A model generated the notes under the pieces. The model made no database searches and was not told the origin of the DNA. It saw nothing but the letters and a program-made list of their open reading frames with translations. The translations under genes were made by a program, and so were the position numbers. Below, piece after piece: positions 1 to 13,490 of a DNA stretch of 13,490 nt. Source of the DNA: Candidatus Atribacteria bacterium 1244-E10-H5-B2 (lineage in GTDB: Bacteria; Atribacterota; JS1; SB-45; 34-128); the NCBI GenBank assembly GCA_003575245.1, contig NMQN01000869.1:1-13490 (forward strand). The letters run 5' to 3'. The stretch's first letter is position 1. The number at the start of each line of letters is the position of its first letter.

Positions 1-413
1 AGGTCACGTACGTTTTTAATTTCCGGTGCCCACTCCATAGCTACGAAATTTTGCGGATTGGGATATACGTGGGATACAAATCTCATTCCCTTGTAGCGAT
101 CCTTTTCACGATCAGCCCACTGACCTATATTATTATAAGATTGAAAGGCTGGATTAGCACTTAAGAATGAAAGCTCTACTTCCTTATCTGCTAATAAATC
201 AACATTATTTGCGCTACCTTTAGTTGCTTGTATTGAAACCTGCAAATCTGGAAATAGATCATTCCATAATGAAGCCATGCCCGCACCCAAACGGTAATAA
301 TTACCTCCTGATCCTGCTGTACCTAATCTAATAAAAGTCTTAGCGCTAACAGTAACACCACACATTACCAATAAACTAATTATCAGTAATAAAATAACAC
401 ATTTCTTTAACAT
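1..413 (-). CDS. TAXI-family TRAP transporter solute receptor (N-terminal part, runs off left edge)
   Basis: Periplasmic substrate-binding subunit of a TRAP transporter, an ion-gradient-driven importer of organic acids. About 137 residues are visible. Residues 1-22 form a signal peptide (MLKK, then a long hydrophobic stretch, ending near VSA). Mature sequence begins KTFIRLGTAGSGGNYYRLG, which matches the TAXI family opening in which a glycine-rich turn is followed by Tyr and a Gly-containing helix. Two ATGs are in tandem at 416 and 413. The GGAGG at 420-424 lies 3 nt from the first and 6 nt from the second, so 413 is preferred. It lies 108 nt downstream of the SDR gene and is probably the last visible gene of the sugar-acid operon; the membrane subunits would follow outside the window. 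The ligand cannot be read from the sequence; a sugar acid is an inference from neighbours. Confidence 0.85.
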   Translation of the reverse strand, partial: MLKKCVILLLIISLLVMCGVTVSAKTFIRLGTAGSGGNYYRLGAGMASLWNDLFPDLQVSIQATKGSANNVDLLADKEVELSFLSANPAFQSYNNIGQWADREKDRYKGMRFVSHVYPNPQNFVAMEWAPEIKNVRD

Positions 414-480
414 CATAAACCTCCATAATAAATTTTATTTTTCTTAAGGAACTTAACTTGTACTTTTTTTAATGTTTTTT

Positions 481-489: not shown

Positions 490-521
490 TTTTTCTGTTT
501 GGTGCATTCTGATTTGAGGTA

Positions 522-1268
522 TTAATCCATTAAACATCCGCCATTTACATCCAGAACTTCACCAGTTATGAATTTTGCTTTGTCTGAAACCAAGAATACC
601 ACCGCTTCAGCAACATCCTCAGGTTCTCCTAATCGACCAAGTGGAATGTCTGCAATAATACTTTTCCTTTTCTCTTCTGACCATTCCTTGCTCATATCTG
701 TTTTAATAGCATGGGGTGCGACGACATTGACATTTATATTATATGATGCTAATTCTCTGGCCAACGATTTCGCCAGGCAAGTCATGCCTGCCTTAGAAGC
801 CCCATAGCAAGGAGCGGAAGCAAGATCACCAATCTTTCCTGCAATAGAGGATATATTTACAATCTTTCCGTATCTCTGTTTCTTCATAGTTCCTACGACT
901 GCTTTTGCACAATTGAAAGCACCTTTAAGATTTACATCCATAACCCTATCCCAATCTTCTTCTGTAAGATCCTCTATCGAACCACGCTTTATAATTGCGG
1001 CATTGTTTACCAAAATATCAACTCGTTTAAATTTCTCAAGGACCAATTGTACCATTCGAAAAACTTCTTTACTATCTGAAACATCTACCTGGATGGCCCA
1101 AGTTTGCCGGTCCAAAGATTTAATTTCCCTAGCTACTTTTTCAGCCGTCTGAATATCAACATCGATAGCAATTATATTTGCTCCTTCCCGGGCTAAAGCT
1201 ATAGCTATAGCTTTGCCTATACCTCGACCTGCACCAGTAACTATAGCTACTTTATTGATTAAACTCAT
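522..1268 (-). CDS. Short-chain dehydrogenase/reductase (classical SDR, hexuronate or keto-gluconate reductase candidate)
   Basis: 248-residue cytoplasmic NAD(P)-dependent oxidoreductase of the classical SDR family, normal length. The Rossmann turn TGAGRGIG is at 11-18, Asp36 ends beta strand 2 (favouring NAD over NADP), NNAA is at 88-91, and the catalytic residues are Asn113, Ser141, Tyr155 and Lys159 (YGASK). After the active site, the usual PG motif reads APH (His186 for Gly), a small oddity near the substrate pocket. Start at 1268 is supported by GGAGG 7 nt upstream, which touches the stop codon of the preceding gene; the 12-nt gap indicates translational coupling. FabG, KduD, gluconate 5-dehydrogenase and the SDR-type mannonate oxidoreductase of Bacillus all look alike at this level. 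Beside KDG kinase and KDPG aldolase, reduction of a keto-hexonate or hexuronate is the best inference; fatty acid synthesis is unlikely. Confidence 0.9.
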   Translation of the reverse strand: MSLINKVAIVTGAGRGIGKAIAIALAREGANIIAIDVDIQTAEKVAREIKSLDRQTWAIQVDVSDSKEVFRMVQLVLEKFKRVDILVNNAAIIKRGSIEDLTEEDWDRVMDVNLKGAFNCAKAVVGTMKKQRYGKIVNISSIAGKIGDLASAPCYGASKAGMTCLAKSLARELASYNINVNVVAPHAIKTDMSKEWSEEKRKSIIADIPLGRLGEPEDVAEAVVFLVSDKAKFITGEVLDVNGGCLMD

Positions 1269-1280
1269 CTACTTACCTCC

Positions 1281-2261
1281 TTATATAACCTTTTTATTTA
1301 CTGCTTGAGGGTTAACCATTGCCTTCGGCAATCCTCCTTTTAAAACGGAAAGCACTGCCTTGGCGGTCTTGGTCTTCAACTCAACATAGGATTCTTCTGA
1401 GTAAAAAGAAATATGAGGCGTAACAATCAGATTATCTAACTTTGGTAAGAGATTTTTCCAGTCAGGTGGTTCTTTTTCCATCACATCCAAAGCAGCTCCA
1501 GCAATCCATCTTTCCTTAAGGGCTACATAAAGATTTCTTTCATCAATAATTGGTCCTCGGGCAGTATTTATTAAATAGGCAGTTTTCTTCATAGTCTTTA
1601 GTTCGCTTTCTCCAAAAGAATGCTTGGTCTTGTCCGTTAGGGGAGTATGAATGGAAATAAAATCTGAATCAGACAATAATTGAGAAAATTCAACCAACTT
1701 TATTCCTCCATCAATTTTGGAAACATAAGGGTCATAAGCTATAATTTTAAAACCAAATCCTGAAGCTTTTTGAGCTACTGCTCTAGCAATTTTCCCCAGA
1801 CCAAAGAGACCGAGAGTTTTTCCTTTAGTTCGAAAAAGAGGCTTGGCCAAAGTAAAATCCCATATTTTCTCACTTATTTTACTATCAAGTAAGGTTATTC
1901 CTCGTGCGCAGGACAGGATTAAAGCCATAGTATGAGTAGAAACCTCATCAATACAGTAATCCGGAATATTCGCTACGATAATCCCATATTCAGTAGCTGC
2001 TTCTATATCAATATTATCCACTCCTACCCCATAACGAGCGATAACTTTGCACTTCTTTAATGATTCAATCACTTTTCTGGTTATAGGTGCATATTGATTA
2101 ATTATTCCATCAGCATCCTGAGCTACTTCTATCACTTCATCCTCTGTATTACAGTAAGCCAAAACAAACTCCGGATCAATTTCACTTAATATTTCTTTTT
2201 CTATTTCTACAGAAGGGTGGTCGCAATCAGTTATTACTACTTTTGGTCTATTTTCAGACAT
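1281..2261 (-). CDS. D-isomer-specific 2-hydroxyacid dehydrogenase (CtBP/phosphoglycerate dehydrogenase-like)
   Basis: 326-residue NAD-dependent dehydrogenase that interconverts a D-2-hydroxyacid and its 2-keto acid in the cytoplasm. Visible in order: N-terminal substrate domain, VGVDNID at 79-85, the nucleotide-binding turn GLGKIA at 154-159 (last Gly replaced by Ala), Asp177 at the end of beta 2 favouring NAD, catalytic Arg235 in NTARG, Glu264 and His283 in TPH. There is no C-terminal ACT domain, so it is not a full-length serine-pathway SerA. GGAGG lies 4 nt before the ATG. It is 68 nt downstream of kdgK and 12 nt upstream of the SDR gene, so it is cotranscribed with the KDG enzymes. The substrate is unknown; a sugar-derived keto acid such as 2-keto-gluconate, glyoxylate or hydroxypyruvate would fit the family and the operon. 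The family call is firm, the reaction is not. Confidence 0.9.
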   Translation of the reverse strand: MSENRPKVVITDCDHPSVEIEKEILSEIDPEFVLAYCNTEDEVIEVAQDADGIINQYAPITRKVIESLKKCKVIARYGVGVDNIDIEAATEYGIIVANIPDYCIDEVSTHTMALILSCARGITLLDSKISEKIWDFTLAKPLFRTKGKTLGLFGLGKIARAVAQKASGFGFKIIAYDPYVSKIDGGIKLVEFSQLLSDSDFISIHTPLTDKTKHSFGESELKTMKKTAYLINTARGPIIDERNLYVALKERWIAGAALDVMEKEPPDWKNLLPKLDNLIVTPHISFYSEESYVELKTKTAKAVLSVLKGGLPKAMVNPQAVNKKVI

Positions 2262-2329
2262 ATATCCTCCTAACCTTAATTCTAAAAAAATTCTAAAACT
2301 TAACCTGTTTTTTGTTTTTAGTAACAGTC

Positions 2330-3358
2330 CTACCTTTGTACTCTCCCTGATGTTGCTCCTCCAGCTAAGCTTTTTACCTCTTCAACTGAAAGCAAAGGCA
2401 GATCACCGGGAATAGAATGTATAAGGCAAGATGCTGCTACCGCAAATTCAAGGGACTCTTTATCATTAGGCAAGTTATTAAAACCATAGATTAAGCCTGC
2501 AGCAAAAGCATCTCCTCCTCCTACTCTATCTATAATATTATGAATTTCATATTTTTTCGAAACAAAAAATTCCTTTCGGTTATTCAGCACTGCTGACCAT
2601 CCATTGTAGTTTGCAGAATGGCTCTCCCTTAAGGTTATTGCAATTTTTTTGATATCGGGATATAAATCAAGAACTCTATCGGTCAATTCTCTATACTTTT
2701 CTGTTTGGAGTCTTCCTGATTCTACATCTACATCTACTTTAATCCCAAGAGACTTCTGACAGTCCTCTTCATTTCCTATAGCAATATCAATATATTTAAC
2801 CAACTCACCCATTACTTGGGGAGCAGACTTTCCATGCTTCCATAACTTTTTCCTAAAGTTAAGATCACAGGAAATGGTAATGCCTTTTTCTCTGGCTTTT
2901 TTCACTGCTTCTATGGAAAGCTCTGAGGCCGAAAGGGAAATAGCCGGAGTAATACCGCTAATATGAAACCAACTTACTCCATCAAATACCTTGTCCCAGT
3001 TAATATCGCCAGGTTTTGCTTCAGCAATAGCCGAATGAGAACGATCATAAATAACCTTGGAGGGTCTCTGATTGGCTCCGGCTTCTAAAAAATAGATACC
3101 TAACCTGTTTCCTTTTCTGACGATAAGCGAAGTATCAACACCCTGCCTTCTCAGTTCTTTAATACAAGCATCGCCAATTGGGTTATTAGGGATTACAGAA
3201 ACATAGGCAACGTTTAAACCAAATCGGGCTAAACCCACGGCTACATTTGCTTCCCCTCCTCCAAAGGTAGCTTCCAGGAGAGGACTCTGAAAGAATCTTT
3301 CCCAATTGGGTGGTTTAAGCCGCAACATTATTTCCCCAAAAGTAATATACTTTTTCAT
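2330..3358 (-). CDS. kdgK: 2-keto-3-deoxygluconate kinase, PfkB family
   Basis: ATP-dependent kinase making KDPG from 2-keto-3-deoxygluconate. The start chosen is the ATG at 3358 (342 residues), not the in-frame ATG at 3370: GGAG at 3365-3368 lies 6 nt before 3358, nothing similar precedes 3370, and the protein then begins [17 protein letters not shown], the usual beginning of KDG kinases. The substrate-side PfkB signature [15 protein letters not shown] is at 33-47. The ATP/anion-hole signature [12 protein letters not shown] is at 277-288, with catalytic base Asp283. The C-terminal [11 protein letters not shown] is also typical of this subfamily. Only 20 nt separate it from the aldolase gene upstream, which uses its product. 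Fructokinase or another PfkB sugar kinase is the alternative, but the N-terminal LRLKPP motif and the neighbour argue for KDG. Confidence 0.92.
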
Positions 3359-3378
3359 TGTTTTCTCCATTTCAAAAA

Positions 3379-4338
3379 TTATTTTTGCAAAAGATGAATT
3401 GCAAATCCTGATACTTCTTGATCTAAATAGATTGCTTTAAGTTTGCCCTCCTTTTCTTTAGCAGTCTCCGGAAGAACTGGAATACCTTTTATTTTTAGGT
3501 AGGCTATTGCCCTGTGAATATTGTTAGTGGCTATGGCAATATGACCGCGCTTCCCCAAATACTTATTTTTAATAACCTCAAATCCTGAACCAGCAAAAAT
3601 AGAGCTTGTTCCCTCTTTTATAGGAAAATAAAAAAGACGTGAAAGTAGGTTGGCAGAATTAAGAGCTTTATCTTTGGTTTCCTCATTTATTCCCAGATGG
3701 GCGAACTCAAAACCGAGCATTATAGAAACAGCTTCCTTGGTAAGTCTGGTAATCTCATCAAAATGACCCGAAGAAATAAGGTCGGTCTTTACCATCCAAC
3801 TACCACCACAGGCAAGTACTTTATTATTGGACAAGTAAGAAGATAAGTTATCCTGATTAATCCCTCCGGTGGGAATAAATTTTATCCCGGTATAAGGTGC
3901 TGACATAGATTTGAGAAGTGGTAATCCTCCTGATGCTTCAGCAGGAAAATATTTTACTACCTCAATTCCTCTCCCTAAGGCCATCTCAATCTGGGTGGGA
4001 TTATTTATACCAGGGGTTACCGGAATGCTGTTTTCTAGGCAATAATCTACTACTTTTGGGTTAAAACCCGGGGATACAATAAATTTAGCACCTGCAGAAA
4101 CTGCCTTTTTCACCTGTTCAACTGTTAATACGGTCCCTGCTCCAACTAAAAGTTCGGGGAGTTCTCTGGTTAGGGTTTTAATTGACTCTTCTGCAGCAGA
4201 AGTTCTGAAGGTAATCTCAGTAATAGGAAGGTTACCATCAATAAGTGCCTTCCCAAGAGGAAGAGCATCTTCAGCTTTTTCAATTTTAACCACAGGTACA
4301 ATCCCCAGCTCACCGATTTTTTCAAGAATTTTATTCAC
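3379..4338 (-). CDS. eda: KDPG/KHG aldolase with fused C-terminal VOC (glyoxalase-like) domain
   Basis: Class I aldolase that cleaves 2-keto-3-deoxy-6-phosphogluconate to pyruvate and glyceraldehyde 3-phosphate. Residues 1-207 form the Eda TIM barrel: catalytic Glu41 with Arg45 in EITFRT, GAGT at 66-69, SPGFNP at 89-94, Schiff-base Lys129 in VKYFPAE, and the phosphate loop PTGGI at 156-160. Ordinary Eda ends here. This protein continues for about 110 residues with two beta-alpha-beta units resembling the vicinal-oxygen-chelate fold (AHLGIN around 213, GHIAIAT around 265, final GFAIHLLQ around 311). His315 takes the place of the usual metal-binding Glu. The same fusion occurs, as far as known to me, in some Firmicutes aldolases, and its role is unclear. 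The start is GTG, with GGAGG 8 nt upstream. It is the first intact gene after the operon promoter and lies 28 nt from the IclR relic. Confidence 0.92.
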
Positions 4339-4365
4339 CTAAACGACCTCCTTTTTGTATTAATT

Positions 4366-4509
4366 TTAGTAATGAATAGTGCTAGGATAGATTCCTAATT
4401 TTTCACTGATTTCAGTCATGTTCATAGAGGAACTTTGTTGAAGTAAAATTTCCAGAATAGAGAGGGATTTATTTAAAACTTTTATAGGATAATTAGGTGA
4501 TTTTTTCAT
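4366..4509 (-). pseudogene. IclR-family regulator relic, N-terminal helix-turn-helix only
   Basis: A 47-codon reading frame from the ATG at 4509 to a TAA at 4366. Residues 8-24 (PIKVLNKSLSILEILLQ) and 31-46 (MTEISEKLGIYPSTIH) reproduce the opening of IclR-type regulators: a VLNKSLSILE helix, then the helix-turn-helix with its TEIxxKLGxxxSTIH recognition segment. In intact members the next residues are R-L-L, followed by a wing and an effector domain of about 180 residues. Here the sequence goes straight to a stop and the ribosome binding site of the aldolase gene, so an internal deletion removed about four fifths of the gene. IclR proteins of the KdgR type control KDG and uronate genes, which fits the operon it precedes. 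The sequence match was judged by eye. Whether the stub is translated is unknown; only AAGGA precedes the ATG. Confidence 0.75.
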
Positions 4510-4537
4510 CTTGTTATCCTTACTGCTTTTCTACATT

Positions 4538-4554
4538 ACAGAAATTGGTTCTAT
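4538..4554. promoter_or_regulatory. Inverted repeat just downstream of the aldolase promoter (operator candidate)
   Basis: Minus strand reads ATAGAACCAATTTCTGT. The arms AxAGAA and TTCTxT are symmetric around a 5-nt centre, placing it at roughly +9 to +25 from the expected transcription start. A repressor site there would block transcription; the lost IclR protein or a paralogue elsewhere is a possible ligand. The symmetry is short and could be chance in AT-rich DNA. Confidence 0.3.
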
Positions 4555-4569
4555 TTTTATTCTATTCTT

Positions 4570-4599
4570 ATTATACAAGATGAATTTTAATTTTGTCAA
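4570..4599 (-). promoter_or_regulatory. Sigma-70 type promoter of the eda-kdgK operon
   Basis: A perfect -35 hexamer TTGACA (4594-4599) and a perfect -10 hexamer TATAAT (4570-4575) are separated by 18 nt on the minus strand. Transcription would begin near 4563, about 54 nt before the IclR relic and 225 nt before the aldolase GTG. It is the best promoter match in the window and now drives the sugar-acid operon. Confidence 0.75.
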
Positions 4600-4816
4600 C
4601 TTTTTATATAACTTTTTTTTCTTATTCTAATCTTTCTCTAACTACCCCACCCAAGTTTACCCTAACTATAACTTTTTGTATAAAATTATAATAAAATACT
4701 CATTGGAAATAAAAAATTAGTATACAAGGAATTGAGCGGAAAATTTAGTAGGCTGAGTAGAAATTACTATGCTTTTCTTCATTGTTTTATACTCCCATTG
4801 TAATTAAAATTAATCT
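4600..4816. other. AT-rich gene-free stretch upstream of the eda promoter
   Basis: No open frame, RNA gene or clear palindrome is seen here. It is rich in A/T runs and separates the promoter from the repeat mosaic to its right. Weak TATAAT-like strings occur on the minus strand near 4690, without a recognisable -35 partner. Confidence 0.5.
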
Positions 4817-4837
4817 AGCAACTGTCAACTCGCAACT
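4817..4837. repeat. Three tandem heptamers NNCAACT
   Basis: AGCAACT, GTCAACT and CGCAACT follow each other without a gap on the plus strand. It resembles the heptamer series at 5182-5223 in unit length and lies at the other edge of the same repeat-filled intergenic region. Confidence 0.6.
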
Positions 4838-4900
4838 ATTTCTTCTTCTTTGTTAGATACTATTAGTAGACAAGCGAGACGCCTACGGGTTACTTACCTA

Positions 4901-4921
4901 GGGCAGACACGAGGTCTGCCC
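4901..4921. repeat. Palindromic repeat, GGGCAGAC stem-loop
   Basis: Arms GGGCAGAC (4901-4908) and GTCTGCCC (4914-4921) are perfectly complementary over 8 bp with a 5-nt loop. No U-run follows on either strand, so it is not a normal intrinsic terminator. Its outer bases GGGCA/TGCCC are shared with the stem-loop at 5135-5154, suggesting one dispersed palindrome family. Confidence 0.7.
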
Positions 4922-4985
4922 CAACAACTATCTCCTGATTCTGATTCCCTCTTTCATAACCATACGCTCTACGCTAATTCTTGAG

Positions 4986-5017
4986 ATTGTCGCGCTCCCT
5001 ACGGCCGCAATGACAAT
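4986..5017. repeat. Inverted repeat ATTGTC...GACAAT
   Basis: Six-base arms enclose 20 nt of GC-rich sequence (including CGCGCTCCCTACGGCCGCAA) that differs in composition from the AT-rich surroundings. The layout resembles short dispersed elements of the type 'attg-c...gcaatgacaat' common in intergenic regions of many uncultured bacteria; that comparison is from memory. Confidence 0.5.
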
Positions 5018-5022
5018 TGCTC

Positions 5023-5040
5023 TTTTGCGTTTACGCAAAA
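5023..5040. repeat. Perfect palindrome TTTTGCGT-tt-ACGCAAAA
   Basis: Eight-base arms at 5023-5030 and 5033-5040 are separated by two bases. It is part of the repeat mosaic downstream of iolN. The transcript could fold here, but there is no adjacent gene on the plus strand for it to terminate. Confidence 0.6.
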
Positions 5041-5060
5041 TCGAACATCTACGTTTACAT

Positions 5061-5103
5061 AGACAGGTGGGACTGCCCTCGTGGAAACGGGTAACGCCTG
5101 TCT
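5061..5103. repeat. Inverted repeat AGACAGG...CCTGTCT
   Basis: Seven-base perfect arms enclose 29 nt, which themselves contain a short CTCG/CGGG hairpin around a TGGAAA loop. The unit looks like a folded element inserted in, or left in, the intergenic region rather than a regulatory site of a known gene. Confidence 0.5.
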
Positions 5104-5134
5104 CTGAATCAAGGTAGGAGTTCGATTCTAGGAA

Positions 5135-5154
5135 GGGCACAATTCATTGTGCCC
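5135..5154. repeat. Palindromic repeat, GGGCACAAT stem-loop downstream of iolN
   Basis: Arms GGGCACAAT (5135-5143) and ATTGTGCCC (5146-5154) form a 9-bp perfect palindrome with a 2-nt centre. In the iolN transcript it would form a stable hairpin about 60 nt past the stop codon. No U-run follows, so it may protect the 3' end or be a dispersed repeat copy rather than a true terminator. Confidence 0.65.
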
Positions 5155-5181
5155 CTACACCTGAATCTTATTTTTTTTCAC

Positions 5182-5223
5182 GCAATACGCGATATGCGAT
5201 ACGAATTACTATTCACTATAGAC
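5182..5223. repeat. Degenerate heptamer series overlapping the 3' end of iolN
   Basis: On the plus strand the sequence divides into six consecutive heptamers: GCAATAC, GCGATAT, GCGATAC, GAATTAC, TATTCAC, TATAGAC. The first four are clearly related; the last two are weaker. The series ends inside the last codons of iolN, so repeat sequence supplies the stop codon and perhaps the last residues. Confidence 0.55.
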
Positions 5224-6340
5224 TATTTATTTGCCCAATATATGGTAACTCAAATACAGATTTCCAGCCTTTGCTCATAGGTTCCTTTAAAAAAGGTTCC
5301 ATCTCTTTAGGGTCACGCAGACTAATCTTTTCTACCGGTGGTAATTTTCCTGCCGGATAGGTCTCCATAATCTCATCATGAACCAAAGTCAAATAGCTTA
5401 GAATTGCAGCGATGGGGCGTTTTGCTTTTTCAGCACTCGCTCGAGTCGGACAGCCTACTACTCCTTCCGGTACAGCTGCTCTTTCAATGGCAGATTGACC
5501 TTCTCCTTGCTGCCACCCTTGAGGACGACGATAGGGGTCAACCGATGTATCAAAATGACCACCCGGCAATAAAGATTCCCCTTCAGTATCAACCGCATAC
5601 TCCATATCTAACATATCTGGAAATAACAATTGAGCCACTGAGGCTTCTGCTTCATCGGCATGAATAAAATCGGTGGTGAGACTATCTTTTCTATCAATAG
5701 GAATAAAGAATTCTCTAATTGACCTATGCCAGTCAATTACCCGATAGATACCAGGTAATTGATAGCGTTTGCAGAATTCCTGTATGGCTGATTCTAATAT
5801 CCATAATTGTCCATGATTATTAACCCACATCTGCTTGCGAAAACCATCATTCCAAAGTCCATACATCACATTGATCATAGTTTCTCTAACTACATCTTCG
5901 GGCATAATAATTGTGCCAGCCATACCAAAATGATGATAAGGATGTCCGCCATAATTTAAAGGAGGTAATACTAAACTACATCCTACTCCATCTCTATTTT
6001 TTATATAGCGTCGAACTCCTTCACAGATTTGGGTGACCATAAAAGTATCCAGACCTGTATTAGCATAATCACCATGACACTCGGTGCATCCCACCGGCAC
6101 AAAAACAAAATCATTTTTACGCCTGTTTTCTATAACATGCATGCGGGGAGTAGTTTGAATATAACTCCCTGCTTTCCCTAATTCAGGAGAAGAAGGGATT
6201 TCATATTTCTTTAGTATTTCTTCTATTTTACTCATCGGTGCATTAAAAATATCTTTTTTCAATCTGCCAACTTGAGTATTTTCAAAGATTATTTGAGGAT
6301 AATCAGTAGTCAGCCATTTTTTATTTTTTTTATCAGACAT
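5216..6340 (-). CDS. iolN: 3-dehydro-scyllo-inosose hydrolase, creatininase family
   Basis: Hydrolase proposed to open the cyclic diketone 3-dehydro-scyllo-inosose to 5-keto-L-gluconate in the cytoplasm. The 374-residue protein has the creatininase-type metal site: PVGCTECHG at 82-90 (Glu87, His89), Asp98 in TGLD, a His-rich GGHPYHHFG at 131-139, His176 in NNHG, and HADEAEAS at 227-234. It is longer than creatininase itself, with about 75 extra N-terminal residues (conserved-looking WLTTDYP and PSSPELG) and a C-terminal extension. The assignment rests on the metal motifs and on iolM lying 24 nt upstream, the same pairing as TM0412-TM0413 of Thermotoga maritima. GGAGG lies 8 nt before the ATG. 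The stop codon falls in a repeat (5182-5223). A creatininase-like amidohydrolase of unknown substrate is the alternative. Confidence 0.82.
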   Translation of the reverse strand: MSDKKNKKWLTTDYPQIIFENTQVGRLKKDIFNAPMSKIEEILKKYEIPSSPELGKAGSYIQTTPRMHVIENRRKNDFVFVPVGCTECHGDYANTGLDTFMVTQICEGVRRYIKNRDGVGCSLVLPPLNYGGHPYHHFGMAGTIIMPEDVVRETMINVMYGLWNDGFRKQMWVNNHGQLWILESAIQEFCKRYQLPGIYRVIDWHRSIREFFIPIDRKDSLTTDFIHADEAEASVAQLLFPDMLDMEYAVDTEGESLLPGGHFDTSVDPYRRPQGWQQGEGQSAIERAAVPEGVVGCPTRASAEKAKRPIAAILSYLTLVHDEIMETYPAGKLPPVEKISLRDPKEMEPFLKEPMSKGWKSVFELPYIGQINSL

Positions 6341-6364
6341 TTTCAGTTCCTCCTTTTTATTAAA

Positions 6365-7549
6365 TTATTTAAATAAACAGGTAATTTTACATTCTGTTCT
6401 ATCAGTCCGCAGGAGAACTATATTCTCCGGAACTTCATCTAAGGCTATCTTTTTGGTAATCAATGGAGTCATGTCCATTCCTGAAGCCATTGAACTAATA
6501 ACTCGGGGGAATGTTCCATGCCCTGAATGCCCCTGGGAACCCACGATAGATGCCCTTCTTACCTGAAAAACTTCGCCGGTTACCGGAATCTTTTTATCAG
6601 AACGGGCTACAATTACTACTGTGCTGTTAATCATCTTACCTTCCCAAATGGCTTGCTCAATATCTGCCCAGACCTTATCAGGTAAACCCGTTGCTTCTAA
6701 ATACAATTTAGCTCCCAAACCACCGGTTATATCTAGCACTCTCTCGGCAAAGTTTTCCTTAAAGGGATTGATGATATGGTCTGCGCCCATTAACTTGCCT
6801 AATTTTGCTCTTGATTCAGAAGGTTCAGAGAGAATTACATTGGAGGCTCCGGCTTTTTTCATTATAGCTACTGCTGCAAGACCGATAGGCCCTCCGCCTA
6901 AAATTACTGCATTATCTCCGGGTCTTATTCCTCCGCCTCGTTCTATCATTGCATTATAAGCTACTGATGTAGGTTCAACTACACTGCCAGCCAGAAATAA
7001 GTCATCACCTTTATAAACTCTCTTTAGTTCTTCCAGGCTCCAAATATAGCGGGAATCAACTTTAACATACTCCGCAAAAGCGCCATCACAACTAAAACCA
7101 ATCTCTTGTAATTTTTCACAGTGATTAGGATAGCCGTCGGCACAGGGTCGGCAAGAAGCACACCAGAACATTTCTTCTGCAGTTACTGCTTCTCCTTCTT
7201 CGAATTTCTTCCCCGTTCTCTTGTTGATGGCCTGTTCACCTGCCTCCACTACCAATCCTGAAAATTCATGACCCAGGGTCGCCGGAAAAGCAGTAAGTCC
7301 CGGATACCAGATATAATCATCATCATCAGGTTGAGCCATATGAACATCACTTCCACATATTCCGCAAGCTTTAACTCTTATTAAAACCTCTGTGGGTCCA
7401 ATTTTAGGAATGTCTTTCTCCACTATTTTAATCTCCGGATTCTTCCAAACTTTGCTCCCCAAATAAGTAAGTTTCCCGTCAATATCTTTTGTTCCTAACT
7501 TAAAATCTGGTTTAGGCTGCCAGTCAGCGTATAAAGTTACAGTTTTCAT
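6365..7549 (-). CDS. iolM: scyllo-inosose 3-dehydrogenase, zinc-dependent alcohol dehydrogenase family
   Basis: NAD-linked medium-chain dehydrogenase that oxidises scyllo-inosose to 3-dehydro-scyllo-inosose. At 394 residues it is longer than sorbitol or threonine dehydrogenases because of an N-terminal extension (KLTYLGSKVWKNPE around 26-39) and an insert near 105-120, both features I recall in TM0412 of Thermotoga maritima. Catalytic zinc ligands are Cys65 (CGICGSD), His94-Glu95 and Glu192 (VEP). Structural zinc ligands are Cys130, 133, 136 and 144. The nucleotide turn GGGPIG is at 218-223, and Glu242 at the end of beta 2 favours NAD. The C-terminal QVRRASIVGSQGHSGHGTFP (329-348) is a distinctive block. 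GGAG lies 9 nt before the ATG. It lies 47 nt after the LacI gene and 24 nt before iolN. Confidence 0.9.
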   Translation of the reverse strand: MKTVTLYADWQPKPDFKLGTKDIDGKLTYLGSKVWKNPEIKIVEKDIPKIGPTEVLIRVKACGICGSDVHMAQPDDDDYIWYPGLTAFPATLGHEFSGLVVEAGEQAINKRTGKKFEEGEAVTAEEMFWCASCRPCADGYPNHCEKLQEIGFSCDGAFAEYVKVDSRYIWSLEELKRVYKGDDLFLAGSVVEPTSVAYNAMIERGGGIRPGDNAVILGGGPIGLAAVAIMKKAGASNVILSEPSESRAKLGKLMGADHIINPFKENFAERVLDITGGLGAKLYLEATGLPDKVWADIEQAIWEGKMINSTVVIVARSDKKIPVTGEVFQVRRASIVGSQGHSGHGTFPRVISSMASGMDMTPLITKKIALDEVPENIVLLRTDRTECKITCLFK

Positions 7550-7596
7550 TTTTTATTTCTCCTTTTTTTTAATTTTAATTTAGTAATTTACTTTTT

Positions 7597-8607
7597 TTAT
7601 TTTCCGTTTATTTTTTTACAAGATTCTCTGATGATTAATTTAGATTCTAACACTTCTTTTCTTTGATTAAATTCTCCCTCCTCTATTATCTTTATTAACG
7701 TCTTTACTGCCAATGCCCCCATCTCCAACATCGGCTGACGAATAGTAGTCAAAGAGGGATAGACAAAAGATGCTAATTTAATGTCATTAAAACCTACTAC
7801 TGAAAAATCTTCTGGAATACGGAAATTCTTTTTTTGAATAACTTGCATAGCTCCTAAAGCCAGCAAATCATTGGCAGCAAATATAGCAGTAGGCGGTTCA
7901 GCTAATTTTAAAAATCTTTTCATAACCTGATAGCCACCTTTTATTCTAAAATCACCTTCTCCTACCAATTCGTCTCTGTATTCAATTTCATATTTTTTTA
8001 AAGCTAATTTATAGCCTTTTAATCTATTAAGTGCTGATCTTGTCTTAAGGGGGCCAGTGATATGGGCAATTCGACGATGACCAATCTTAATTAAATATTC
8101 AGTAGCCACAATTCCACCTTCTACATCATCAACGATTATACAATTTTTATTTAATTTTTCAATATTTCGGGAAACTAATATATAAGGAAATTTCTTCTTC
8201 TCTAATTCTAAGATACTTTTGTCTTTGATATGGGCCGTCCCTAAAATTAAACCATCAACTCTTTTTCCCTTTAATATCTCCAGATAAATTCTTTCCTTTT
8301 TTAACTTGTCATCAGTGTTGCACAATATTATGTTAAATCCATTTGCATTAGCCGCATCTTCCGCTCCTCGAGCTATCTCTGCAAAAAAAGGATTGGTTAT
8401 ATCCGGAATAAGCATTCCCAGGGTATAAGTTCTTTTTGTTTTTAGCCCACGAGCAATGGCATTAGGAGTATATCCTAATTTTTTAATTATCAAAAGAACT
8501 TTATTTTTAGTCTTTTCACTTATCCGGGAATCATCGTTTATTACCCGGGATACTGTGGAGGGATGGACCCCCGCTAATTCTGCCACATCCCTAATTGTCG
8601 GATTCAT
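7597..8607 (-). CDS. LacI-family transcriptional regulator of the inositol genes
   Basis: 336-residue sugar-responsive repressor, full length. The helix-turn-helix spans about 4-23 (TIRDVAELAGVHPSTVSRVI). The hinge helix is PNAIARGLK at 48-56, with Leu55 in the position that intercalates a central CpG. The periplasmic-binding-like effector domain follows, with IPDITNPFF at 67-75, an NDLLALGA segment at 246-253 and GFND at 272-275. Two operator-like palindromes with central CpG lie upstream of this gene set (11105-11120, 11305-11318), so autoregulation together with the iol genes is likely. Its position between iolG and iolM, 38 and 47 nt from them, suggests inositol or an early intermediate as effector; this is inference. 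No close Shine-Dalgarno precedes the ATG (AAAGGA is about 17 nt away), which may keep repressor levels low. Confidence 0.9.
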   Translation of the reverse strand: MNPTIRDVAELAGVHPSTVSRVINDDSRISEKTKNKVLLIIKKLGYTPNAIARGLKTKRTYTLGMLIPDITNPFFAEIARGAEDAANANGFNIILCNTDDKLKKERIYLEILKGKRVDGLILGTAHIKDKSILELEKKKFPYILVSRNIEKLNKNCIIVDDVEGGIVATEYLIKIGHRRIAHITGPLKTRSALNRLKGYKLALKKYEIEYRDELVGEGDFRIKGGYQVMKRFLKLAEPPTAIFAANDLLALGAMQVIQKKNFRIPEDFSVVGFNDIKLASFVYPSLTTIRQPMLEMGALAVKTLIKIIEEGEFNQRKEVLESKLIIRESCKKINGK

Positions 8608-8645
8608 AATCTATTTTTGTTATTTCCTTTCTTCTCTCCAATTTT

Positions 8646-9653
8646 TCACTTGGTTATTTTTACAAAACTTCCCTTGATTAGAGATTCTTTGGCTGCGTAT
8701 CCCATCTGGACAGAGAGTTTACCATCCAATCCACCTACTAGCGGTTCAGTATCCTCCTGGATACATTTAATAAATTCTTTCATCTCAACTAAATAAGCTT
8801 CTTGATATCGTTCTATAAAGAAATAAAGAGGTTTATCAGTCTTGGTATCCTCAGCGCTATTAATAGTTACTTCTGTTGGTGTTGGATTCCCTACCATTAC
8901 GCAGCCTTCCGAGCCAAATATTTCTATACGCTGGTCATAGCCATAAACTGCTTTTCGACTGTTATCGATAGTTCCCCAGGCAGCACCTTCGTATTTCAGA
9001 GTAACTATCGCTGTATCAATATCCCCTGCCTCTCCAATAGCCGGGTCAACCAAACAACTACCCACCGCCATCAACTCAACCACCTCTTGGTCTAAAAGGA
9101 AACGAGCCATATCAAAATCATGAATCATCATATCCAAAAAAATTCCCCCGGATACTTTAACATAACTAATCGGTGGCGGTTCAGGATCTCTACTGGTTAT
9201 TCGCACCAGGTGAGGAGTGCCAATTGTGCCTTTTACCACCAGGTCTTTTGCCTTTTTAAAGCTGGGGTCAAAACGGCGATTAAATCCCACCTGTAGTTTT
9301 ATTCCCGCATTTTTAACTGCAGCTATAGCTTGGTCAATTTTATCTATATCTAAAGCAATGGGTTTTTCACAAAAGATGTGTTTACCCGCTTCAGCTGCTT
9401 CGGAAATTATTTGAGCATGGGTATCAGTAGAGGAACAGATTACTACTGCATCAATATCCTTATTTTCTAATAAAACTCGATAATCTTTTTCAGCGGTAGG
9501 TATTTCTAATTGAGAGGCTGTTTCCCTGGCGCTCTTTTCAAGTATATCAGCAACCGCTAACACTTTTGTCCCAGGAATCTGATATTTTAAATTGCGAGCA
9601 TGTAATCTTCCAATTCTACCAACACCAATTACACCAATATTAACTTTTTCCAT
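8646..9653 (-). CDS. iolG: Inositol 2-dehydrogenase, Gfo/Idh/MocA family
   Basis: Oxidises myo-inositol to scyllo-inosose (2-keto-myo-inositol) with NAD, the first step of inositol catabolism. The 335-residue length is typical. The Rossmann turn GVGRIG is at 10-15, Asp36 ends beta 2 (NAD), catalytic Lys97 lies in CEKPIA, and Asp174/His178 in FLDMMIHDFD are the substrate residues equivalent to Asp172/His176 of Bacillus IolG. AAAGGA lies about 10 nt before the ATG. Its neighbours iolM and iolN make the inositol assignment much stronger than motifs alone would, since many Gfo/Idh/MocA enzymes act on other sugars. A separate promoter flanked by inverted repeats may lie between it and the TIM-barrel gene (9695-9764). 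scyllo-Inositol dehydrogenase is the closest alternative. Confidence 0.88.
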   Translation of the reverse strand: MEKVNIGVIGVGRIGRLHARNLKYQIPGTKVLAVADILEKSARETASQLEIPTAEKDYRVLLENKDIDAVVICSSTDTHAQIISEAAEAGKHIFCEKPIALDIDKIDQAIAAVKNAGIKLQVGFNRRFDPSFKKAKDLVVKGTIGTPHLVRITSRDPEPPPISYVKVSGGIFLDMMIHDFDMARFLLDQEVVELMAVGSCLVDPAIGEAGDIDTAIVTLKYEGAAWGTIDNSRKAVYGYDQRIEIFGSEGCVMVGNPTPTEVTINSAEDTKTDKPLYFFIERYQEAYLVEMKEFIKCIQEDTEPLVGGLDGKLSVQMGYAAKESLIKGSFVKITK

Positions 9654-9694
9654 AATTTATACTTCCTTTCTTGTTAATTTTTTATCTATAAATA

Positions 9695-9764
9695 AATGAT
9701 TACAGAGATTATATTAGACTGCACAGGTTAAATTCCATACTCATTAAAAATCTGCGTAATCATT
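9695..9764 (-). promoter_or_regulatory. iolG promoter candidate enclosed by an inverted repeat
   Basis: A TATAAT -10 box on the minus strand lies at 9708-9713; the -35 region is poor (TGGAAT at 18 nt). AATGATTACagAGA (9695-9708) and TCTgcGTAATCATT (9751-9764) are inverted copies matching at 12 of 14 positions. One copy covers the expected start of transcription and the other lies about 56 nt upstream, the layout of a pair of protein sites. In RNA reading through from the gene upstream, the same bases could pair as a stem. Confidence 0.4.
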
Positions 9765-9779
9765 AATAATGTATTCTTT

Positions 9780-10550
9780 TTATAAATCAACTGATTGAAT
9801 CCATTTATAAAGTTTTTCATAAGTAAAACTTTTTTCTTTTACAAAAAACTCAAATCCTACAAACCCTGAATAAACTTTTGAAAGTTCTTTAAGAATAAAT
9901 TTGAAGTCAAGTTCTCCGATCCAGGGTTCACACCTATACGGAACATTTGCTATATGGATATATCCTATAAATTGGTGATATTTTTGTAAAGTTTCTAAGA
10001 CATTTCCCTCCATAATCTGCATATGGTATATATCATAAAGTACTTTAAGATGCTCAGAATCTATTGATTGAATCAACTCAAGGGTTATTAGAAAATTATC
10101 TAAAAAATAATTTTTATGGTCTTTTAAAGAGTTTAGTGGTTCAATCACCAACATAATATCTCTCTTTTTAACAACCTCAACAAGAATTCTAAGATTATCA
10201 TATAAGCGAAGTAATTTTTTTTCACTGCTTATTGAATTAGTTTTTACGCTTCCATCGCCTTCTAATATATCTGATAATAACATAATACGTTCACATTTTA
10301 ATCTCTTTGCAATATCGATAGAAGTGCTTATCTCCTGGACAACTTTTTCTTTATTATCTAAACTTAAGGATGATACTCTATTCCCACTAAAATTTGAAAC
10401 TTTCAAACCACTATTTATAATTAGCTCAAAATCTTTATCTCGCCAATCCCAGAATTCAATAAATTTAAATCCTGCTTGTTTTATTTTTTCAAGTTTTTCC
10501 TTTAAACCATCTTCAGGATATATTGAATCTATACATAATGAAAACTGCAT
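9780..10550 (-). CDS. Hydroxypyruvate-isomerase-like sugar isomerase/epimerase (TIM barrel)
   Basis: 256-residue member of the xylose-isomerase-like TIM-barrel superfamily, closest by eye to the hydroxypyruvate isomerase (Hyi/OtnI) branch: FIEFWDWRDKD near 30-40, IEPLN at 136-140, LYDIYHMQIMEGN at 171-183, and YIHIANVPYRCEPWIGELDF near 197-216. The metal ligands expected for the fold are present: Glu137, Asp173, His199 and Glu234. It opens the surviving inositol gene set, 44 nt behind the binding-protein relic, with AAGGA about 6 nt before the ATG. The Thermotoga inositol pathway needs a 5-keto-L-gluconate 3-epimerase (IolO, also a TIM barrel). No other epimerase is visible, so this protein may fill that role; its sequence does not resemble IolO closely as I remember it. 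A keto-acid isomerase unrelated to inositol is also possible. Confidence 0.85.
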   Translation of the reverse strand: MQFSLCIDSIYPEDGLKEKLEKIKQAGFKFIEFWDWRDKDFELIINSGLKVSNFSGNRVSSLSLDNKEKVVQEISTSIDIAKRLKCERIMLLSDILEGDGSVKTNSISSEKKLLRLYDNLRILVEVVKKRDIMLVIEPLNSLKDHKNYFLDNFLITLELIQSIDSEHLKVLYDIYHMQIMEGNVLETLQKYHQFIGYIHIANVPYRCEPWIGELDFKFILKELSKVYSGFVGFEFFVKEKSFTYEKLYKWIQSVDL

Positions 10551-10594
10551 TTCTTTTCCTTTTCATAATATTTGAATTAATTTAAATATTTTTA

Positions 10595-10840
10595 TTAAAA
10601 TCTAAATTCCTCAAGTTTAAATACCGCAGGTCCAGTATAAATCACTTTTAAATCGTCATATAGATCACCTGCATCGAGTGCCCCATTTTCACAAACTTTC
10701 CAGAATGGGTCTGCAATACCACCGTGGACTACTACATAAATTGTATATTGCTTTTCTGCCGCAAAAGAAGATAGGAAGATACTCGAAAACAAGAAGATTA
10801 CGATAAAGATAAACAAACCAGTTTTTAAATTGCTTTTCAT
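10595..10840 (-). pseudogene. Truncated periplasmic sugar-binding protein of a CUT2-type ABC transporter
   Basis: Eighty-one codons that begin like an intact receptor and then stop. Residues 1-27 are a signal peptide (KSNLK, then a hydrophobic core, ending SSFAA). Residues 32-76 (YTIYVVVHGGIADPFWK, then a VIYTGPAVFKLEEF segment) match the first beta-alpha-beta unit of RbsB/AI-2-like binding proteins, which normally have about 320-350 residues. The frame ends RF-stop, and no other frame resumes the family before the next gene starts 44 nt later, so the rest of the gene and any ATPase and permease genes are missing here. The leader is intact: GGAGG lies 6 nt before the ATG. CUT2 systems include the known inositol importers, so this was probably the operon's own transporter. 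Confidence 0.78.
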
Positions 10841-10904
10841 TTTTTACCTCCAAATAATTTTTAAATTTCTAAAAAATATCCAGGAAAAATTTTCTCCTTA
10901 TGTC

Positions 10905-10913
10905 TCACCTCCT
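10905..10913 (-). promoter_or_regulatory. Orphan Shine-Dalgarno-like sequence AGGAGGTGA in binding-protein leader
   Basis: Same nine bases as at 481-489, here 65 nt before the receptor start at 10840. It is not followed by a usable ATG; the overlapping GTG frame ends after 15 codons. The gene's own GGAGG lies about 55 nt further down. Confidence 0.35.
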
Positions 10914-10922
10914 CTTGTTGGT

Positions 10923-10972
10923 TCCCTGTTATTTGAAGGATAGTCTCTTTTTTCAGGGTATGACTACAGGGA
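10923..10972. other. Leader dyad with two possible pairings
   Basis: TCCCTGT (10923-10929) pairs with ACAGGGA (10966-10972), with a second short pairing AGTC/GACT inside. A copy of CAGGG at 10954-10958 can compete for the same CCCTG. On the plus strand the dyad runs into GTTTTTTG like an intrinsic terminator, but no plus-strand gene precedes it. On the minus strand it lies in the leader of the receptor relic. Confidence 0.4.
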
Positions 10973-11104
10973 GTTTTTTGATTTTTAAGAAGCCGAATTT
11001 TAGTAATTTTTGCACCAAAATAATTATATTTGTATTATAAATAATTCAAATAATATCTTAATAAGTTAATTTCTAATGTTAGCCTGAACAATTTTAAATA
11101 TTAA

Positions 11105-11120
11105 ATGCGAACGATTGCAT
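11105..11120. promoter_or_regulatory. LacI-type operator O1
   Basis: ATGCGAACGATTGCAT fits the LacI-family pattern TGNAANCGNTTNCA at all fixed positions but one, with the central CG in place. It abuts a TATAAT box on the minus strand (11119-11124) whose -35 is weak. It is centred 199 nt from O2, close to a whole number of helical turns, and about 200 nt downstream of the other promoter candidate. Confidence 0.6.
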
Positions 11121-11304
11121 TATAATAATTTAAATACTATAAAATTCTTTTCTTTGATTTATTTTAATTGAATCACTTCTTTTGATTTCTAATTTTCGAG
11201 TATTTGTGTTTAATTTTATTCATTAATCACTTACTGAGCTCGTTAACAAAAATTCAAAATAGTGATAAAAATGAGAAGGCATTTTCAGTGAAATTTTATA
11301 ATTA

Positions 11305-11318
11305 TGCATTCGATTGCA
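11305..11318. promoter_or_regulatory. LacI-type operator O2
   Basis: TGCATTCGATTGCA has the same TGC...TGCA ends and central TCGA as a LacI-family site, one base off the pattern TGNAANCGNTTNCA. It would sit at about +5 to +18 of the promoter at 11330-11357, the classic position for repression. The LacI-family gene at 7597-8607 is the obvious candidate ligand. Confidence 0.58.
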
Positions 11319-11329
11319 GGTGATTTTAT

Positions 11330-11357
11330 TTTACAATAAGACAATCCTTCTTGTCAA
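11330..11357 (-). promoter_or_regulatory. Promoter candidate for the inositol gene set
   Basis: The -35 box TTGACA (11352-11357) is perfect; the -10 TGTAAA (11330-11335) matches four of six positions, with a 16-nt spacer. Transcription would begin near 11323, directly in front of operator O2, giving a leader of about 480 nt to the receptor relic. Confidence 0.45.
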
Positions 11358-11422
11358 AAAAATTTTTGAAGCAGATTTTTTCATAAGGTAGTTGGATAAT
11401 AAACTTTCATTATTAAAATCTG

Positions 11423-11439
11423 AAAAATAATTTATTTTT
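11423..11439. repeat. All-AT palindrome AAAAATAA-T-TTATTTTT
   Basis: Eight-base perfect arms around one base, composed only of A and T. It lies about 140 nt beyond the mannosidase stop. The predicted hairpin is weak, so a terminator role is doubtful. Confidence 0.4.
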
Positions 11440-11577
11440 GAATTCTTTTTATTTCTCAGTCTATTTTATATCTTCTTTATATTTGGAGATCCCTTTAGTT
11501 GCGCCATTTAGGTGCTTATTTCCTCTCGGAGACTTCATGTAAGAACCATAACTATATTCCACTTATTTATACTTAAT

Positions 11578-13490
11578 TTACAATACTTCAAAAATAATAG
11601 TCTTTATTTCTTTTGGTTTAAGCGCTATTTCAACTCCATCATTATAGGGCAATTCTTCCCTATAACTTTCATCCAATCTACCAAAGTAAACCTTGTGTAC
11701 ATTAAATCCTAATTTAATCTTTCCAGTGGTCTCTCTATTAGTAGGATTATAAATCCTGACTACCAATTTATCTCCAAACTCATTCTTTTTAATGGCACTA
11801 ATCTCTAAATACTTACCTTCTAATTGAATAAAACTACAGCTACTCGGTAGATTTCCAGATTGATTTTCTAATTGTCTGGTTAATATTTTTGTCTTATACT
11901 GCTTTGTCTTCTGAGAAATACAAGCATCATCCCAATTACCCTGATGAGGTATGAGAGCATATAAGAAAATATTTTCACCTAAACATTGTGCTTCTGGGGT
12001 GGCAAATGAAGGACCAGCATTCCCCCTTTTATATTCCAGATCCCCCCGGGATAACCAACCTACACATCGGAGTAAAGTTAAAGCTATGCTATTATTCTCA
12101 GGTATTATCTCGTACTCAGGTAGTCCTCGATTTAGTACAGCCAGTCCATATTTACCATCATTAATATCTATGAATCCTGAATTATGAGCAGTTTTATAAG
12201 CTTTTTCTTTCCAGCCTTCACTATCAGGTATATTGATGAAACGTTTTGCTACATCAAAGTGACCTTCAGCGTAAACATAATTGCTTTTAATAGCTGTGGG
12301 AAATTCTACTTGTAAACGATGATCACAGACTCTGTTATCAAATTTAGTTTTAAATTCTATTCTCTGAACTTCGCTAAATAATTTTATTTCAGATTCAATA
12401 GGACACTCTACCTTCTTATCTTCTCGAGATTTTCTATCAGATTTTAATCCGACTGGCAACATCATCTTCCCAGATACTTTTAAGATGACTTCAGAGGGAC
12501 CCACATCCTGAATGCCAATATTATCCAATCGGCTAACTATTATTTCATCATTCAAAGGTGGAGAATAAGTATATTCATCTCCTGCATCTCCCCCGTCTAC
12601 AAATCTATAGCAATTTTTAAAAACTTTATTATTTAATTTGTCTATAATGGTTACAGTTCCGTTAGCTTCTTCAGCGATTACCTTATAATATTTATTCTCA
12701 ATGTAATCTCTACCGGCTCTTATATCAGTCTCGTATTCTTTAGAGGTCCTTAAATCATTAATTGTCTTAATAGTAAAAGTTTTATAACCACAGGCAGGAA
12801 TATCTTCAGCAGTAAAAGATATATCAGCATAATTTACTTCTAGAGGCTGGGGAGATTTAAAAGGATTAAAAATAATTTTATAATCTAAGCCATGCCCTTT
12901 TAATTGATAAGGAATCTCCTCTCCTTCTGTAGTTAAAACCTTTACCCGGTTTAAGTTAATCTCTTTGGGGAATTTAATTCTTACCTCTACATTCTCATCT
13001 ATAGAATAAGGCAGAGGGTTGAAGACCACGAGGACCAATTCATCTTTGTTTAAATAATCGATCTTAATCTTATCAGTAATATAATCTAAACTTTTATTGA
13101 TTACTTCTTGGGCAATCTGTTTGCACCAATCAAAGCGGGTCATCATCTCTTTATGTACCTGATCAATACTGCAACCACAGATACTATCATGGGGGTGATT
13201 CTTTAATAACCATTTCCAGCTGGTCCAGATTAAATTCTGGGGATAATTATTGCCTAACAGCCAGGCCAGAGAGGCGGTCGGTTCAGCCCAATCCTCTAAA
13301 AGGGTCTCACACTTTTCATTGGCTTGTTTGATATACATCCTGGATGAATATACACTCTGTAAAATCGAGGCATCTTTGCCCGATCTGAATTCACCGGTGA
13401 CTTTATTAAGATTAGGCTTTACAGTCTCTTTAGCATAATCTATATATTCTTTTAAGTTCCCTTGTTTTATCTTGATATCGCTAAAGCATT
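11578..13490 (-). CDS. GH38 alpha-mannosidase, C-terminal 636 residues (5' end beyond right edge)
   Basis: Glycoside hydrolase that removes alpha-linked mannose. The frame stays open from the first internal ATG (13338) to the window edge, so the true start lies outside. The first visible codons read GEFRSGKDASILQSVYSSRMYIKQAN (given in two parts: GEFRSGKDASI, then LQSVYSSRMYIKQAN), the end of the catalytic barrel and start of the helical bundle. His100-Asp101 of the visible part (HPHDSICGCSIDQVHKEM) supplies the zinc-binding histidine of bacterial GH38 enzymes. The long beta-rich C-terminal part follows (about 170-636). The nucleophile Asp lies in the missing N-terminal part. No signal peptide can be assessed. 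It precedes the inositol genes but is 737 nt away with a promoter region between, so it may be a separate transcript. Substrate linkage is not readable. Confidence 0.9.
   Translation of the reverse strand, partial: CFSDIKIKQGNLKEYIDYAKETVKPNLNKVTGEFRSGKDASILQSVYSSRMYIKQANEKCETLLEDWAEPTASLAWLLGNNYPQNLIWTSWKWLLKNHPHDSICGCSIDQVHKEMMTRFDWCKQIAQEVINKSLDYITDKIKIDYLNKDELVLVVFNPLPYSIDENVEVRIKFPKEINLNRVKVLTTEGEEIPYQLKGHGLDYKIIFNPFKSPQPLEVNYADISFTAEDIPACGYKTFTIKTINDLRTSKEYETDIRAGRDYIENKYYKVIAEEANGTVTIIDKLNNKVFKNCYRFVDGGDAGDEYTYSPPLNDEIIVSRLDNIGIQDVGPSEVILKVSGKMMLPVGLKSDRKSREDKKVECPIESEIKLFSEVQRIEFKTKFDNRVCDHRLQVEFPTAIKSNYVYAEGHFDVAKRFINIPDSEGWKEKAYKTAHNSGFIDINDGKYGLAVLNRGLPEYEIIPENNSIALTLLRCVGWLSRGDLEYKRGNAGPSFATPEAQCLGENIFLYALIPHQGNWDDACISQKTKQYKTKILTRQLENQSGNLPSSCSFIQLEGKYLEISAIKKNEFGDKLVVRIYNPTNRETTGKIKLGFNVHKVYFGRLDESYREELPYNDGVEIALKPKEIKTIIFEVL

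Follow-up and report, generated by a model that had tools for sequence, protein, structure and literature searches.

The window analysed here is a stretch of 13,490 nucleotides from Candidatus Atribacteria bacterium 1244-E10-H5-B2 (contig NMQN01000869.1, positions 1 to 13,490 of the forward strand), and all feature coordinates are window positions. It probably represents a Thermotoga-like myo-inositol locus of the Atribacterota type after the loss of some of its parts, with iolG, iolM and iolN intact and iolO among the truncated genes. The pathway is a known one, seen here in a host on which little work exists and with a part deleted from the locus. Few Atribacterota are in culture, and their diet is inferred from gene clusters such as this one. 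Likely substrates of the phylum include hexuronates as well as inositol, for which phospholipid head groups and plant matter are sources.

Inositol ring-opening genes

All main genes of the window are located on the minus strand, and 11 of its proteins were scanned with NCBIfam and Pfam profiles. As claimed in the original prediction, iolG, iolM and iolN are grouped with a LacI-type regulator, since four intact open reading frames (ORFs) are present and three of these exceed their NCBIfam cut-offs. These three are the inositol 2-dehydrogenase gene iolG (8646..9653; 335 aa; TIGR04380, 462.8 bits with a cut-off of 355), the scyllo-inosose 3-dehydrogenase gene iolM of the zinc dehydrogenase family (6365..7549; 394 aa; NF041097, 511 bits, cut-off 450) and iolN, encoding a 3-dehydro-scyllo-inosose hydrolase of a long subfamily (5216..6340; 374 aa; NF041098, 315.6 bits, cut-off 245). 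The LacI-family gene lies between iolG and iolM (7597..8607; 336 aa; PF00356 and Peripla_BP domains), and its product matched 19 NCBIfam models, every one below its cut-off. A LacI-family gene has the same position in L001-L004, L010, L011, L135, L139 and L142. A scan for a LacI operator shared by the upstream regions of both operons, in the form of a CG-centred palindrome, gave a single window match, located within ORF 11578-13488; L002 has one well-placed candidate, upstream of its ABC genes, and the matches in L010, L011 and L139 are scattered.

The assignment to the Thermotoga-type families is backed by both the curated models and the gene order. A better fit to unrelated zinc dehydrogenases or to creatininases can be set aside: with their own models IolM and IolN reach 511 and 316 bits, compared with 183 for IolM with threonine dehydrogenase and 47 for IolN with creatininase. 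Among solved structures, the nearest chain to IolM is 3ip1 (636 bits, E 1.7e-190; next chain 145 bits) and the nearest to IolG is 3ezy (373 bits; next chain 271), which we take to be TM0412 and TM0414, respectively; the entries themselves are labelled simply as dehydrogenases. Solved structures related to IolN are limited to remote creatininases (best 31 bits). The ratio of nonsynonymous to synonymous substitution rates (dN/dS) is 0.07-0.09 for iolG (four relatives compared), about 0.03 for iolM and about 0.04 for iolN.

Judged from these families, the window carries Thermotoga-type inositol ring-opening genes with predicted enzyme activity. The predicted steps are oxidation of myo-inositol to 2-keto-myo-inositol by IolG, a second oxidation by IolM that yields a diketone, and hydrolytic opening of the diketone ring by IolN to give 5-keto-L-gluconate. 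The source of the Thermotoga inositol pathway is reportedly Rodionova 2013.

The window is Atribacterota-like, as its nearest relatives in IolN (L001-L011, 83-94% identity) are all Atribacterota metagenome-assembled genomes, and its GC fraction of 0.358 compares with 0.343-0.384 in nine Atribacterota loci. Scanning a genome collection with an IolN alignment yielded 483 relatives, the best 80 of which were kept, corresponding to 78 loci; this set is biased to the relatives of the window because only the best matches were retained. Counts in the 78 loci are also lower bounds, because the ORF calling was greedy and dropped genes in GC-rich loci (IolN was recovered in 73 of 78). IolM and IolN occur together in 45 of the 78 loci, so their grouping is not due to chance. 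In a protein search, 2,593 proteins match IolN at E 1e-20 or better and the family is therefore common. Plasmid records yielded 32 matches, all of them distant creatininases and each covering less than 80% of the query.

For family searches, 50 Atribacterota genomes served as a sample of the phylum. IolM exceeds its cut-off in 19 and IolN in 21 of these, and each of the two models passes in one of 14 control genomes, taken as T. maritima. Classical IolD was over its cut-off in none of the 50, so that, of the markers for the two inositol routes, the Thermotoga-type one alone exceeds its cut-off in this sample (IolM 19/50, IolD 0/50). The predicted absence of iolB, iolC, iolD, iolE and iolJ from the window was confirmed as well, with no match over cut-off among the 11 proteins (for the short-chain dehydrogenase/reductase, SDR, among the best 25 of 231 families). 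Accordingly, only the first step, IolG, is common to the window and the Bacillus-type pathway (IolGEDBCJ).

The closest known system is the T. maritima cluster TM0411-TM0416 with InoEFGK, which resembles the window in the joint presence of the IolG, IolM and IolN families, in the IolO of the window's relatives and in the lack of a classical IolD over cut-off in the 50 genomes. The two differ in several respects. According to PMC3750489, the regulator in T. maritima is of the ROK family, whereas that of the window is LacI-type. The window also has a long IolN, iolO and a transporter protein in the form of stubs, and an adjacent operon for 2-keto-3-deoxygluconate (KDG). Its sole PfkB kinase fits KDG-kinase models best, a result of model scores and not of a direct comparison with TM0415.

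Within the 50 genomes, IolN matches over cut-off form two groups, one of about 322 aa at 495-529 bits and one of about 370 aa at 293-324 bits. The window IolN falls in the long group, about 200 bits under the shorter subfamily. Long and short proteins are 37-41% identical and have the E-x-HG...D and HG motifs in common, but differ in the N-terminal extension. An IolM orthologue adjoins the short form in L101, L102 and L108, and the long form in L109, L111-L113 and L115-L122. Short IolN-like proteins of about 322 aa (L145 6997-7962 in G039:C13, and L103-L107) comprise at least two subgroups. The gene in L145 adjoins TRAP transporter genes, an SDR gene and a zinc dehydrogenase gene whose product is 30% like IolM; because of these neighbours, its product may act on another cyclic substrate.

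Three genes of the window, overlooked in the original prediction, are 5' stubs, all on the minus strand, and in each the homology breaks off abruptly. An intact IolO was not found at the window locus, where 16 codons of the 5-keto-L-gluconate epimerase gene iolO are left (4717..4782, homology in 4735-4782), followed by non-homologous codons and a stop. This stub is 94% identical at the amino acid level to L001 over the 16 codons and 95% identical to L002 over 19 residues, with a DNA identity of 88-89% over about 80 bp. The gene right after iolN in L001, L002, L003, L008 and L010 is iolO, with NF041099 passed in all five (379-384 bits, cut-off 300), and the best solved relative of the L001 protein is TM_0416 (228 bits). 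The second stub (4366..4509) holds 47 codons of an IclR-type regulator. The L003 IclR has 257 aa, and the stub shares 64% amino acid identity with its residues 4-47; the stub DNA is 91% identical to G001:C65, the match stopping at about 4373. The third belongs to a sugar ABC binding protein (10595..10840, homology in 10604-10840). It has 81 codons, 79 of them homologous, and is 90% identical to residues 1-79 of a 327-aa protein (L002:568-1551), the nearest model of which is NF052284 (197 bits, cut-off 420).

Because iolO is cut to a 5' stub, the window locus alone would end at 5-keto-L-gluconate. In the relatives, IolO would epimerise this compound to D-tagaturonate, UxaE (reportedly the subject of Rodionova 2012) would convert tagaturonate to fructuronate, and a D-mannonate oxidoreductase would then form mannonate. 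The segment between iolN and the iolO stub (4867-5215) contains short dispersed intergenic repeats (query parts 1-87, 114-178 and 239-349), with matches at dozens of sites in contigs of Atribacterota.

The neighbouring KDG operon

The original prediction placed KDG enzymes in the next operon. This stands for the 2-keto-3-deoxy-6-phosphogluconate (KDPG) aldolase, as the KDPG/KHG aldolase gene eda (3379..4338, minus strand) exceeds the TIGR01182 cut-off over residues 7-206 of 319 (253.9 bits, cut-off 156). The PfkB kinase (2330..3370, minus strand; PF00294) is only a probable KDG kinase, because its best NCBIfam models, which contain KDG kinase, stay below their cut-offs (NF041633, a fusion protein, 501 against 700; NF041332, 209 against 440); the iolC domain model gives 115 bits with a cut-off of 300. 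The same operon holds, also on the minus strand, genes for a D-2-hydroxyacid dehydrogenase (1281..2261; PF02826/PF00389; 73% to L008, where it is located after KdgK and the TRAP genes) and an SDR oxidoreductase (522..1268; PF13561; 75% to L008). A TAXI-type TRAP binding protein (3..416, minus strand) is cut by the window end, with PF16868 over its cut-off and TIGR02122 at 77.3 against 84.35. The aldolase has about 110 extra C-terminal residues past the aldolase model (3379-3720), and the aldolases of L003 and L138 are equally long.

The adjacency of the iol and KDG genes is real and recurrent, yet separable. Thirteen Atribacterota loci could be read beyond iolN (L002, L003, L005, L006, L007, L008, L009, L058, L131, L135, L138, L139 and L143); L143 is the continuation of L001, L002 and L009 belong to one genome, and L005 and L007 cover only 2-3 kb. 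Loci whose sequence ends too early (L004, L010, L011, L142) and iolN places with short flanks only (e.g., G018, G020-G022, G024, G033, G034) were excluded from this count. IclR, Eda and KdgK follow iolN/iolO in four of the 13 and do not follow in the other nine. The order iolN-iolO-IclR-Eda-KdgK is seen in L003, L008 and L009, and L138 has TRAP genes between IclR and Eda. Outside this count, G046 (L137) has an iolO remnant, IclR pieces, Eda and KdgK in one row, and G001 has the KDG operon on a separate contig (L140). Both Eda and KdgK are present in five of the 78 loci, two of which lie outside Atribacterota (L012, L032); weaker Eda-like tblastn matches (L026, L035, L038, L040) were not counted.

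Downstream genes were searched in the 12 genomes whose iol clusters most resemble the window's (G001, G002, G003, G004, G007-G010, G038, G039, G045 and G048). Their IolM is 79-97% identical to that of the window, except in G039, which was included by synteny, as its contig ends within iolN and no IolM over cut-off was found. G005 (IolN 85%) and G006 (IolN 83%) were excluded since iolM is not adjacent to iolN. Absence in these draft genomes refers to a threshold of E 1e-20 (1e-40 for PF00920). At E 1e-20 none of the 12 has a UxuA (PF03786), UxaA (PF04295) or enolase-type (PF13378) dehydratase. IlvD-type genes number one in ten genomes, two in G008 and none in G004. Enolase-type matches outside the 12 were found in G006 (two) and G011 (one), both of which carry iolN, and not in G005.

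These results bear on the proposal that both operons form one route, in which enzymes encoded outside this locus would convert 5-keto-L-gluconate to KDG and the adjacent KdgK and Eda would complete the route. The recurrence of the gene row in four of 13 loci, the co-occurrence of Eda and KdgK in five of 78 loci (two of them non-Atribacterota) and the presence of IlvD-type genes in all but one of the 12 genomes speak for it, the IlvD family also including sugar-acid dehydratases. However, the single IlvD-type gene of ten genomes may serve amino-acid synthesis, the dedicated dehydratases were not matched in the 12, and the KDG genes are missing behind iolN in nine loci or lie on another contig (G001). 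We consider a common route unlikely. The adjacency itself stands, but a flow of inositol carbon to KDG is only putative, because iolO is a remnant and dedicated dehydratases were not found in the 12 relatives. Adjacency is no proof of an Entner-Doudoroff-type exit. Most likely, the KDG operon (IclR, Eda, KdgK, transporter, 2-hydroxyacid dehydrogenase and SDR) would be a separate sugar-acid module.

A similar downstream route is known from the L-glucose pathway of Luteolibacter LG18, where, according to PMC12632266, an IolO-like C-4 epimerase converts 5-keto-L-gluconate to D-tagaturonate, followed by KDG and KDPG. That pathway differs in starting with L-glucose and in using tagaturonate reductase and altronate dehydratase. 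Unlike in Luteolibacter LG18, the altronate dehydratase family (PF04295) was not found in the 12 Atribacterota genomes.

A possible gluconate exit in relatives

The relatives carry another gene row, comprising (UxaC), UxaE, a 274-aa SDR, a 6-phosphogluconate dehydrogenase (Gnd), a LarA-like protein and a PPi-dependent phosphofructokinase. The row is complete to the phosphofructokinase in eight genomes (G002, G003, G008, G009, G038, G046, G048 and G050), and in G001 and G039 the LarA-like gene is the last on its contig. In L002 the SDR exceeds the D-mannonate oxidoreductase cut-off (364.4 against 281), the G001 UxaE matches PF16257 with 615 bits, and the Gnd proteins of L002 and G008 are over the TIGR00873 cut-off. 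UxaE is present in 29 of the 50 genomes and, within the above set of 12, in all but G004. The row lies on the iol-bearing contig in G001, G002 and G008; in the latter, the iol genes, the KDG operon and the UxaE row are on one strand of one contig within about 28 kb (L008, L141, L146). UxaE is also located near an IolO gene in G010 and G043 (L132, L133).

Since relatives carry this row and dehydratases leading to KDG were not found, the carbon of inositol in these Atribacterota may exit via gluconate and 6-phosphogluconate and not via KDG. A more specific version, which is conceivable and held tentatively, has mannonate being formed by IolO, UxaE and the oxidoreductase, converted to gluconate by the LarA-like protein and passed on to 6-phosphogluconate dehydrogenase. 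KdgK and Eda would then serve an imported sugar acid, and the cluster copy of iolO would have been deleted here as in at least three relatives. The row resembles the hexuronate-to-gluconate branch of T. maritima (UxaE, GntE2) in its UxaE, D-mannonate oxidoreductase, Gnd and LarA-like genes, and differs from it in standing on the iol contig in G001, G002 and G008. According to PMC7583248, T. maritima GntE2 is a tested D-mannonate to D-gluconate epimerase, and PMC6978723 contains a proposal of the mannonate-gluconate link for hexuronates.

Several findings weigh against a gluconate exit. The L002 LarA-like protein reaches 200 bits with the hexonate-epimerase model NF052594, the cut-off being 500, also a difference from the T. 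maritima branch. LarC, which is required for the nickel cofactor, was found (PF01969) in 31 of the 50 genomes, among them G002, G003, G004, G010, G038, G039 and G043, but not in 19 of these drafts, including G001, G007, G008, G009, G045, G046, G048 and G050. LarA-like genes are present in G008, G009, G046, G048 and G050 even though LarC was not found there. The row has no recognisable gluconate kinase, the genomes themselves not having been searched for one.

A 347-aa protein (L002 18787-19830) follows the PPi-phosphofructokinase in all seven loci that continue, with orthologues in L146, L148, L149, L152, L153 and L154. It has no Pfam match, and its named matches are mostly from Atribacterota, some of them 'HAD hydrolase-like'. 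It was rejected as evidence for a gluconate kinase in view of these names and the lack of a solved relative up to E 1.

Origin of the truncations and the upstream flank

The differences between the stubs and their relatives are mostly synonymous (synonymous to other, 23.5:10.5 in 79 codons for the ABC binding protein, 10:4 in 46 for IclR and 4:1 in 16 for iolO). As a result, the losses look recent, if real, although the numbers are small. The dN/dS of the stubs is 0.05-0.08 compared to L001, L002 or G001, and that of iolO is 0 compared to L138 (few codons); for the retained window genes it is 0.03-0.18. IolO exceeds its cut-off in 21 of the 50 genomes; of the 11 genomes that carry the first loci tested, it does so in 10.

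Another explanation would be faulty assembly of a cluster that is in truth intact, with all three stubs as artefacts. The window may be a metagenome contig, and three truncations in 6.5 kb are many. However, junction alignments reveal the relatives' sequence on either side with short similarity only and no long repeat, and genes downstream of the stubs retain their start regions. Moreover, iolO remnants beside iolN or IclR are also present in three other genomes (G010, G046 and G048). An artefact is thus quite improbable, and we infer a biological cause of the deletions. In G010 and G048 an intact IolO over cut-off is encoded elsewhere in the genome (G046 has none), and by analogy the source genome of the window may carry a second IolO as well.

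Some points weigh against a Thermotoga-kind locus with lost parts. According to PMC3750489, T. maritima itself did not grow on inositol. The window IolN is a member of a sister subfamily, and its putative reaction is assigned via the curated cut-off and the context, because the long subfamily is only 37-41% identical to the proteins scoring 495-529 bits. Finally, the stub junctions and the possible second IolO depend on this single contig sequence.

Upstream of iolG lies a gene for a hydroxypyruvate-isomerase-like TIM barrel protein, here called TIM-A (9780..10550, minus strand; PF01261), which is below every listed NCBIfam cut-off. It has an E/D/H/E pattern in common with IolO, residues that presumably bind metal, and is also located upstream of iolG in L002. 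TIM-A occurs in 10 of the 78 iol loci, in Atribacterota and others, and seven of these have a separate IolO-type gene too; of the three without one, L011 is cut at the contig end. It is highly unlikely that TIM-A has replaced IolO and completes the window pathway to tagaturonate, since, despite the shared fold family, full E/D/H/E pattern, position and presence in 10 loci, it scores 72.7 bits with the IolO model NF041099 (cut-off 300) and, given its co-occurrence with an IolO-type gene in seven of 10 loci, is normally an addition and not a substitute. TIM-A was therefore rejected as the IolO replacement in our preferred reading, a locus with parts lost.

Further upstream, the protein encoded at 11578-13488 is of the GH38 alpha-mannosidase type (PF07748, PF09261, PF17677) and is cut by the window end. 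It scores 375.7 bits with the mannosylglycerate hydrolase model, the cut-off being 1138.

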